Source of the DNA: Opitutales bacterium
GTDB lineage: Bacteria; Verrucomicrobiota; Verrucomicrobiia; Opitutales; T3Sed10-336
Length of the DNA stretch: 34,952 nt
Direction of reading: 5' to 3'
NCBI GenBank assembly: GCA_022565335.1
Contig: JAIUMY010000027.1
Coordinates: 1 to 34,952 of the forward strand
Under the pieces are notes generated by a model that was not told the DNA's origin, made no database searches, and saw only the letters and a list, made by a program, of their open reading frames with translations. Numbering within the stretch: position 1 is the stretch's first letter; the number at the start of each line of letters is the position of its first letter. Made by a program: the position numbers and the translations under genes. Shown piece by piece: positions 1 to 3,133 of the stretch.

Positions 1-76
1 CTAGTATCTGTTCTTTGCTTAGGTTCATGATACAAGGGACTTTAACCCTATTACAACGTGCCCATGCCGAGCACAC
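1..76 (-). mobile_element. 5' end of a group IIC-attC-like intron, copy 1 (continues left of window)
   Basis: Minus strand begins GTGTGCTCGGCATGGGCACGTTG...AGGGTTAAAGTCCC; 74/76 identical to 2932-3007, identity stopping at the attC junction; insertion after CTTGT in the attC bottom strand. Confidence 0.62.
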
Positions 77-198
77 ACAAGACGGTGCAGGAAACCGGTA
101 CCGTGCCCTGAGATGACCCATAATCCCCTACAACTTCAACCCCTGTCGTATCAGCGAACCCAGGCTTCCGGTACCGGCTCCTGACCTCGACGTTCTGC
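77..198 (+). repeat. attC1 (long family), R'' side interrupted by intron-like sequence; R' GTTCTGC at 192-198
   Basis: Shares the repeat ACGGTGCAGG...CCGGTACCG...CGGTACCGGCTCCTGACCTCGACGTT with attC2 and attC7; arms are imperfect inverted repeats. Confidence 0.82.
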
Positions 199-241: not shown

Positions 242-499
242 ATGCCTGAAATTTCCAGATTTCTCGGAATCATCATCCGCATGTATTACCGGGATCATGC
301 ACCACCCCATTTTCACGCTGAATATGGCGATTATGAGATTACTGTTGAAATTGCGACTGGCATTGTGACCGGCCATTTCCCAAAGCGCGCATTGAAAGCC
401 GTGTTGGAATGGTATGAAATACACAAAGAAGCCCTACTCCGTGATTGGAAACTTGCCGAGGAGCGGAAACCACTCGAACCCATTCAACCCTTAGAATAA
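242..499 (+). CDS. DUF4160-family protein (TA-like pair, first gene)
   Basis: MPEISRFLGIIIRMYYRDHAPPHFHAEYGDYEITV motif typical of DUF4160. Confidence 0.88.
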   Translation: MPEISRFLGIIIRMYYRDHAPPHFHAEYGDYEITVEIATGIVTGHFPKRALKAVLEWYEIHKEALLRDWKLAEERKPLEPIQPLE

Positions 500-747
500 T
501 GAAATTTCTCCATATCGAAGATGCCAAGTATTTGGACGGATATTCCGTCTGGGTGAAATTCAACGATGGAACTGAAGGACAGGTCAACCTCGAGAGTGAG
601 CTGGAAGGGCCTGTTTTTGTGCCATTGAGAAATCCAGATTACTTCAAGAAGTTCACCCTGGAAGGACATACTCTGACATGGCCTAATGGTGCCGACTTTG
701 CACCAGAGTATCTCCATTCCCTCGTGCCGCACATCCAATCGGCATAG
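499..747 (+). CDS. DUF2442-family protein (partner of DUF4160)
   Basis: ATG overlaps the upstream stop; GYSVWVKFNDGTEGQVNL...WPNGADFAPEYLH motif. Confidence 0.87.
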   Translation: MKFLHIEDAKYLDGYSVWVKFNDGTEGQVNLESELEGPVFVPLRNPDYFKKFTLEGHTLTWPNGADFAPEYLHSLVPHIQSA

Positions 748-797
748 GTAAGCATATTACGGATCGCCTTCACTTCATACTGATCGGGTCCACACTA

Positions 798-924
798 CTC
801 AGACCAGACGGTGCAGGAAACCGGTACCGTGCCCCGAGATGACCCATAATCCCTTACAACTTCAACCCTTGTCGTGTCAGCAAACCCCGGCTTACGGTAC
901 CGGCTCCTGACCTCGACGTTCGCG
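798..924 (+). repeat. attC2 (long family); R'' CTCAGAC, R' GTTCGCG
   Basis: Close copy of attC1; GGTGCAGGAAACCGGTACCG pairs with CGGTACCGGCTCCTGACC. Confidence 0.85.
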
Positions 925-933
925 CAAAAACCA

Positions 934-1128
934 ATGAAAGTCCGTGATATTCTCAAATTGCTTGCAAATGATGGATGGGAAACTGCAAGGACTCGTGGCA
1001 GCCATCGACAATTGAAGCATCCAACGAAGAAAGGAACCGTGACGGTTGCGGGCAAACCAAGTCTTGATATTCCTCCAGGAACCCTTAAAAGTATTTACAA
1101 ACAAGCCAACATCGACCGAAAGGATTAA
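934..1128 (+). CDS. hicA: HicA family mRNA interferase toxin
   Basis: MKVRDILKLLANDGWETARTRGSHRQLKHPTKKGTVTVAGK. Confidence 0.93.
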   Translation: MKVRDILKLLANDGWETARTRGSHRQLKHPTKKGTVTVAGKPSLDIPPGTLKSIYKQANIDRKD

Positions 1129-1129
1129 C

Positions 1130-1345
1130 ATGAGATACGCAGTAGTCATCGAAAAAGGAGAATCATCATACGGAGCCTATGTTCCAGATTTACCTGGTTG
1201 TGTTGCCGTCGGAGAATCCAGAAGTGAGGTTGTGGCGCTCATCAGAGAAGCCATAGAGTTCCACCTTGAAGGAATGAAAGAAGACGGAGAGAAGCTGCCT
1301 GAACCACATTCCGAGACTGAATATGTGGAAGTTTTGACCGCCTAA
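1130..1345 (+). CDS. hicB: HicB family antitoxin
   Basis: MRYAVVIEKGESSYGAYVPDLPGCVAVGESRSEV, next to hicA. Confidence 0.93.
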   Translation: MRYAVVIEKGESSYGAYVPDLPGCVAVGESRSEVVALIREAIEFHLEGMKEDGEKLPEPHSETEYVEVLTA

Positions 1346-1346
1346 T

Positions 1347-1479
1347 CGCGAACCAGGCGGTGCAGTTACTCCCGCTGAGCGGGATGCCCCGAGATGAACC
1401 ATAATCCTCTACAACTTCAACCCTTGTCGTGTCAGCAAACCCCGGCTTTCGGTACCAGCTCCTGACCTCGACGTTGGCC
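1347..1479 (+). repeat. attC3 (long family variant); R'' CGCGAAC, R' GTTGGCC
   Basis: R'' is exactly complementary to cassette 2 start GTTCGCG (918-924). Inner left arm replaced by CCCGCTGAGCGGG palindrome. Confidence 0.88.
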
Positions 1480-1493
1480 AGAGAAAAATGCGG

Positions 1494-1522
1494 TGGACAA
1501 GTGCCTACGTTTTTGCTAATTA
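1494..1522 (+). promoter_or_regulatory. Putative promoter of cassette 3: TGGACA-N17-TAATTA, 6 nt before ATG 1529
   Basis: Hexamer match, 17 nt spacer; leaderless geometry. Confidence 0.5.
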
Positions 1523-1528
1523 AACTAC

Positions 1529-1762
1529 ATGAATAATTCAATGCTGGAATTGAGCCGTCAGGCAATGCATCTTCCTCGTAGCGAACGATTTGCGCTGGCC
1601 AAGAGATTGTTAGACGTGGATGATTCCTCCGATGATTCAAAGATAGAGGCGCTTTGGCATTCAGAAATCCTCAATCGCGCCCAAGCTGTCGAAGAAGGAG
1701 TAGCTCAAGGTTGTTCTTATGATGAAACACTTCGGAAAGTTGACGCAGCACTTAATCGATGA
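1529..1762 (+). CDS. Addiction module antitoxin (PF09720/TIGR02574-like)
   Basis: MLELSRQAMHLPRSERFALAKRLLDVDDSS...IEALWHSEILNRAQAVEEG. Confidence 0.85.
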   Translation: MNNSMLELSRQAMHLPRSERFALAKRLLDVDDSSDDSKIEALWHSEILNRAQAVEEGVAQGCSYDETLRKVDAALNR

Positions 1763-2046
1763 AAGTAATGTTCCTGACCGAGGCATCTCAGGAGTTTGAA
1801 GATGCTGCACGGTATTATGAAGGTGAAGAACCAGGTCTTGGTATTTGATTTCGAAACGAGGTAGATATACATATCAATTGGATTACAGAAAACCCAACAA
1901 TTCCACGTCTCCGAGATGGCAGTTATCGCCGAGTCAATCTAGCGGTATTTCCATACTATATCGCTTATTCAATTAAGGACAATACCATCTGGGTCCTCGC
2001 AATCGCACACGGTCATCGCAGGCCAGAGTATTGGATTGATCGATGA
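1759..2046 (+). pseudogene. RelE/ParE family toxin with in-frame TGA at 1846-1848
   Basis: MKVMFLTEASQEFEDAARYYEGEEPGLGI*FRNEVDIHINWITENPTIPRLRDGSYRRVNLAVFPYYIAYSIKDNTIWVLAIAHGHRRPEYWIDR; CGA to TGA would explain it. Confidence 0.87.
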
Positions 2047-2055
2047 ACCCAAACA

Positions 2056-2188
2056 GGCCAACAAGACGGTGCAGTTACTCCCGCTGAGCGGGATGCCCCG
2101 AGATGACCAATAATCCTCTACAACTTCAACCCTTGTCGTGTCAGCGAACCCCAGCTTACGGTACCGGCTCCTGACCTCGACGATATGC
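2056..2188 (+). repeat. attC4 (long family variant); R'' GGCCAAC, degenerate R' GATATGC
   Basis: R'' is exactly complementary to cassette 3 start GTTGGCC (1473-1479). Same inner substitution as attC3. Confidence 0.87.
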
Positions 2189-2194
2189 AAAAGA

Positions 2195-2443
2195 ATGAAA
2201 TACACTTCCGACCTTAAGCCAAAGGCGATCAAGGATTTGAAAACGATCCCGCTAAAGGAGCGGGAAAGAATTGTGGGATGTATCGAGAAGATGGAGGATA
2301 ATCTTCAGGGTGACGTGAAAAAATTGACTAACCACACCCCGGAATATCGGATGCGCAGCGGAAACTACCGGGTGTTATTCGAGGTTGAAGGAGACAGAAT
2401 AGTGGTTTACCGTATTTTACATCGAAAGGAAGCGTATTTATGA
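2195..2443 (+). CDS. RelE family toxin
   Basis: MKYTSDLKPKAIKDLKTIPLKERERIVGCIEKME...YRMRSGNYRVLFEVEGDRIVVYRILHRKEAY. Confidence 0.9.
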   Translation: MKYTSDLKPKAIKDLKTIPLKERERIVGCIEKMEDNLQGDVKKLTNHTPEYRMRSGNYRVLFEVEGDRIVVYRILHRKEAYL

Positions 2444-2637
2444 GCATTCATCCACAAGTCATTGAAAAAGAAGGGAAAAAGGAATTTGTTGTACTTCCCT
2501 ACGAGGAGTTTTTGGCCATCAAGGAAAGTCTAGAGGATTACGAGGACCTAAAAGATCTCAGAGAAGCTAAGGTTGCGGAAGGAGATGCCCGGACGACTCC
2601 ACTTAGCGACCTGCGTACGGACCTTCTCTCCGAGTAA
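2440..2637 (+). CDS. Phd/YefM-like antitoxin
   Basis: ATGA overlap with toxin; MSIHPQVIEKEGKKEFVVLPYEEFLAIKESLEDYEDLKDLREA. Confidence 0.85.
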   Translation: MSIHPQVIEKEGKKEFVVLPYEEFLAIKESLEDYEDLKDLREAKVAEGDARTTPLSDLRTDLLSE

Positions 2638-2642
2638 GCATA

Positions 2643-3007
<365 letters not shown>

Positions 3008-3076
3008 ACAAGGCGCTGGTGGACAACTCTGTTCCGCGCTCCGCGCTGCACTCCGTGCCACAGCTTGACGTTGGGT
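3008..3076 (+). repeat. attC5 (short, different family), R'' half displaced to 2638-2642 by intron-like insertion; R' GTTGGGT 3070-3076
   Basis: GCGCTGGTGGAC pairs imperfectly with GTGCCACAGC; canonical GTTRRRY R' box. Confidence 0.78.
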
Positions 3077-3133
3077 AAAGGGATCAAGAATCAATGTTAT
3101 TGACTATTCGGCGTCGCCTGTCATCTTCGAATT

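Follow-up and report, generated by a model that had tools for sequence, protein, structure and literature searches.

Group IIC-attC intron copies at unrelated attC sites in a verrucomicrobial cassette array

Two intron ends in one cassette array

How does nearly the same sequence come to lie at the same position of two attC sites that otherwise have nothing in common? This question is raised by the window, i.e., the whole stretch of DNA analyzed here (34,952 nt), which represents the complete contig C27 of an Opitutales genome bin (G000; 3.29 Mb, 92% complete) and whose first base is the contig start. Positions 1–76, read on the minus strand, equal 2932–3007 at 74 of 76 bases, the mismatches being positions 2 and 70, and in both copies the minus-strand junction reads CTTGT|GTGTG. 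The bases after the intron ends are ACAAGACGGTGCAG (1–76) and ACAAGGCGCTGGTG (2932–3007); similarity stops past the common ACAAG, and the sole match between the attC flanks measures 7 bp, which is at chance level. The identity, the shared ACAAG and the two junctions described in an earlier note were thus reproduced, and the attC sequences that follow are indeed unrelated, as it had stated. The features discussed are listed in Table 1.

Table 1. Coordinates of intron, attC and cassette features in the window.
Feature	Position	Strand	Basis or remark
Group IIC-attC intron 5' end, 76 nt, GTGTGCTCGGCATGGGCACG...	1..76	-	Truncated by contig start; match to C71 copy 76/76
Long-type attC bearing the intron; R' at 192–198, R'' half past contig start	77..198	+	Intron-free copies (window 800–921 and contig C170) 93–94% identical
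Cassettes located between the introns: DUF4160/DUF2442, HicA/HicB, addiction module, ParE/Phd	242..2637	+	Pfam; Phd match slightly under the curated cut-off
Member of the first attC family without intron ("empty" site), ...CCAACAAGACGGTGCAG / CCAACAAGACGG	~2054..2070	+	Bottom strand CTTGT|TGG; same family as 77–198
Second attC, R'' half (GCATA) to the left of the intron	2638..2642	+	Direct sequence reading
Internally deleted intron, 365 nt, both ends present (GTGTG ... ACCGGAT), no ORF, domain V disrupted	2643..3007	-	Ends compared with L132
Second attC, remainder (short type); R' GTTGGGT at 3070–3076	3008..3076	+	Sequence reading

The introns are oriented opposite to the cassettes, which are separated by attC copies. 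Removal of 2643–3007 joins 2638–2642 to 3008–3076 and yields GCATAACAAGGCGCTGG...CAGCTTGACGTTGGGT, a textbook attC with R'' and R' boxes. This short attC has no second copy in G000 and no significant similarity to the attC at 77–198, and its fold was no better than those of shuffled sequences. The bottom strand of the 77–198 attC forms long hairpin arms, but with a z-score of just -1.2. Two integron integrases, one intact and one broken (C44:20969–21901 and C170:476–1689 of G000), are encoded close to attCs of the family present in the window, and the host therefore possesses a real integron.

A search of G000 for the intron end retrieved exactly three copies (1–76, 2643–3007 and one on contig C71), all of them at an attC, which is far beyond chance. 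The C71 copy, which is identical to 1–76 over all 76 bases, extends for 201 nt before its contig, too, ends inside the intron; its end matches Rfam family RF02001 (group-II-D1D4-3) with 82.6 bits, the match being clipped by the contig end. Rfam scanning of the window itself identified two tRNAs only, with no match at 2560–3100 including the intron body. A RVT_1 search found no reverse transcriptase (RT) anywhere in the bin, and a model search for domains V and VI (DV-DVI) found no matching intron 3' half. Because both are missing, the 1–76 copy cannot be demonstrated to be full-length; probably, the repeated intron collapsed during assembly. One DV-DVI match, C116:28–112, was considered as the missing 3' half and rejected, as it ends with CTACTCGAT and not with CTACCCGAT. 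Owing to this different end and to neighboring sequence that reads Bacteroidota-like, C116:1–112 (L156) is read as the 3' end of a different class C-like (IIC) intron at a contig start, the contig probably being foreign to the bin.

The neighboring intron at 2643–3007 shares its first 98 nt (93% identity) and its last 43 nt (93%) with the full-length intron L132 from a Verrucomicrobia bin labeled GSL.Bin9, and the DV-DVI model R1 matches 2643–2715 weakly (31.4 bits, E=0.003). Its interior lacks an ORF and holds repeat insertions. We regard it as an older copy with an internal deletion. A palindromic unit of the CCTTCGACAGGCTCAGGA type occupies the same domain I hairpin in this intron and in the 731-nt intron L053, which are inserted into different attCs and belong to hosts of the same family but of different genera. 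Another repeat, which falls within the region of domain V (~2686–2723), is represented in G000 by about a dozen related copies.

Target-site recognition within the intron family

Among G000 and its relatives, the C71 end was matched in 13 of 132 genomes. An intron-only search pattern retrieved 64 stretches from a collection of 85,462 species, 60 of them verrucomicrobial by name. The other four (L085, L115, L120, and L126) may be misbinned; L126 has the same flank as L073, a locus from Opitutales. As the pattern contains no exon sequence, it does not bias the statistics on exons, but the counts are not fully independent, since several loci are near-duplicates of a single site. The 5' exon ends with TTGT at 56 of 64 readable sites, and likewise in both window copies and the C71 copy. 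In all 26 copies for which both ends are available (L050/L079 and L053/L076 each being one copy seen twice), including 2643–3007, the 3' exon begins with T; for the 1–76 copy this side lies past the contig start. An R' motif (AACG or GCGTCG) is present upstream of 45 of 60 sites, compared to 111 of 431 control positions with a terminal TTGT, and its distances cluster near -60, -80, and -119, matching the expected attC size classes. Pairing of the upstream arms also exceeds that of controls (Mann-Whitney p=4e-12), whereas a strict attC test for contiguous pairing separated sites from controls weakly, because attC arms contain bulges. Features common to the about 65 copies retrieved with the intron-only pattern are thus a 5' exon with TTGT, a 3' exon with T and an attC lying upstream, while the attC sequences differ. 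These copies agree with the proposal that the window holds a second insertion of the same intron, which occupies the equivalent structural position (R'', bottom strand) of an unrelated attC. They also support the suggestion that attC architecture and a short motif are recognized instead of sequence homology, which corresponds to the published rule for group IIC-attC introns.

The short motif has a counterpart in the intron. In 18 copies, IBS1 is matched by an EBS1 that occupies a loop of domain I (GGC-ACAA-CACAGCGAA); 15 of these pairs are TTGT/ACAA, and the others are the compensatory combinations TGGA/TCCA (two copies in related hosts) and TGGT/ACCA (one copy). Since both TGGA cases stem from hosts of one family, this covariation represents two or three events. 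The ACAA of the C71 copy pairs with TTGT as well, and the EBS1 of the 1–76 copy lies past the contig start. Exceptions to the pairing rule are G117 (TTGT/ACCA) and L131, in which TCGT meets an ACAA loop. Some of the G028 sites do not resemble attC. In this Opitutales genome, three copies (L072, L082, and L116), all at contig ends, are preceded by TTGT but have no visible attC; possibly, they were retargeted to other hairpins or genes.

All copies start with GTGTG, and the 26 both-ended ones terminate in ...ACCCGAT or ACCGGAT, in line with the GUGYG and AY ends of group II ribozymes; the 1–76 copy contributes a 5' end only. The both-ended copies either measure 203–750 nt and are ORF-less or deleted, or reach ~1.8–2.0 kb, most of the long ones containing an RT ORF. 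ORF-less copies with intact ends are numerous. Cerasicoccus maritimus carries two copies with a common ORF-less layout in different attCs (an ORF-less Cerasicoccus copy measures 621 nt), and also RT fragments of the family, a combination that fits mobilization in trans but does not prove it. Besides the C71 copy, eight relatives match RF02001. The Luteolibacter bin locus L091 contains a head-to-tail intron pair with an ACCCGAT|GTGTG junction. Seven intron 5' ends (L070, L077, L081, L094, L112, and L127) were detected in the single cultured isolate Haloferula rosea KCTC 22201, most of them within ~90 bases of a contig end; the intron repeats appear to break this assembly.

Class assignment and alternative explanations

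The RTs encoded by full-length relatives (1.8–2.0 kb) comprise RVT_1 and GIIM as their only domains, En being absent, and their best match among solved structures is the GsI-IIC RT. In a tree of 28 RTs, the verrucomicrobial sequences form one clade (97/99) apart from GsI-IIC and, with moderate support (87/81), the sister group of class 1 integron RTs. The latter also lie antisense, in integrons that carry blaGES-24, blaIMP, and dfrA14; the equivalent ends of these introns are TTGT|GTACGCCCAGCATGGGC...CTACCCGAT|T, with a GGCACAAGAC EBS1 loop. Domain V starts with the CGC triad of class IIC (CGCC conserved in all 16 aligned relatives), which is disrupted in 2643–3007 and lies beyond the 1–76 end, and DV-DVI shows changes on both sides at 10 of 24 pairs. 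Judged by the features listed in PMC7923331, the window introns are group IIC-attC introns. Positions 1–76 are almost certainly the 5' end of such an intron, which chooses its site by EBS1-IBS1 pairing, the T and the attC hairpin.

Assignment to another class, such as the group IIB introns already reported adjoining attC in some hypersaline integrons (PMC7923331), or to a non-intron repeat is extremely improbable: the related RTs group beside those of integron IIC-attC introns and are structurally closest to GsI-IIC RT, the En domain is absent, the CGC triad is present, and the copies are antisense to the cassettes at TTGT|T sites. Proximity (<3 kb), location in one array and the 74 common bases might suggest that 1–198 and 2932–3080 are a single duplicated stretch rather than two insertions. 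We consider such a segmental duplication most unlikely, as identity extends precisely to the intron boundary and the adjoining ACAAG, and the flanking attCs are unrelated. Moreover, the 1–76 allele is that of C71, which continues intron-like, and not that of 2932–3007, and the same junction occurs in other attCs of dozens of other genomes.

attCs do recombine, and the host has integron integrases, so that a single insertion might also have been followed by the spread of intron-bearing pieces through cassette shuffling. IntI, however, recombines at R', which would move a whole attC and not place one intron in two of them; with the intron found inside the R'' of two unrelated attC bodies, this scenario is very improbable, too.

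The reading as independent group IIC-attC insertions is hence retained. Starting from the intron family, its two boundaries, the site rule, the EBS1-IBS1 covariation, the RT relationship and the CGC triad observed here, we infer that the intron RNA would reverse-splice at the TTGT|T of R'', on the single-stranded bottom strand that forms the attC hairpin, and would then be copied into DNA by the intron-encoded RT. The site would be chosen by ~4 bp of EBS1-IBS1 pairing (ACAA with TTGT), by a 3' exon that begins with T and by the attC hairpin, which would replace IBS2; a choice by short pairing, T and hairpin leads to the same landing place in attCs of unrelated sequence. In the studied host, the RT may be supplied in trans or by an unbinned full copy, and the introns may still be active today.

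Relation to known introns and implications

The insertion mechanism as such is already known: location at TTGT/T (IBS1/IBS3) in the R'' of the attC bottom strand, antisense orientation to the cassettes and the hairpin in place of IBS2 have been published (PMC7923331; PMC4424553). Introns of the S.ma.I2 type, represented by the class 1 integron introns L140 and L142–L144, share with the verrucomicrobial ones the R'' bottom-strand site, TTGT|T, antisense placement, an En-less RT, DV-DVI and the EBS1 loop. They differ by starting with GTACG instead of GTGTG, and their RTs are only ~47% identical to those of the separate verrucomicrobial clade, which is further distinguished by its hosts and its many ORF-less copies. 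GsI-IIC and other class C introns have the RT domain plan in common with this clade, but insert after transcription terminators and occupy a separate branch of the RT tree. A further likeness is UHB.F1 from the soda lake Tanatar-5, a truncated IIC-attC intron with a Verrucomicrobia RT as best database match (80%; PMC7923331), which also resides within a cassette array carrying toxin-antitoxin genes. By its published description, UHB.F1 is 5'-truncated and known from its 3' end and RT only, whereas for the present family we could define the 5' ends and both boundaries and identify many relatives.

Group IIC-attC introns have been little described in Verrucomicrobiota, and the new aspect is the verrucomicrobial branch, in which ORF-less copies are numerous even though bacterial introns without an ORF were said to be rare (PMC4424553). 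Tentatively, and with considerable doubt, we propose that Verrucomicrobiota harbor a distinct IIC-attC branch whose short introns (203–750 nt, ORF-less or deleted, with intact ends) spread between attCs by means of an RT acting in trans. If this is true, these short introns would act as small non-autonomous elements in the remodeling of chromosomal integrons. The natural compensatory changes between EBS1 and IBS1 support the model of site choice, and the range of the family, until now reported mostly from resistance integrons, extends to the chromosomal toxin-antitoxin integrons of Verrucomicrobiota.
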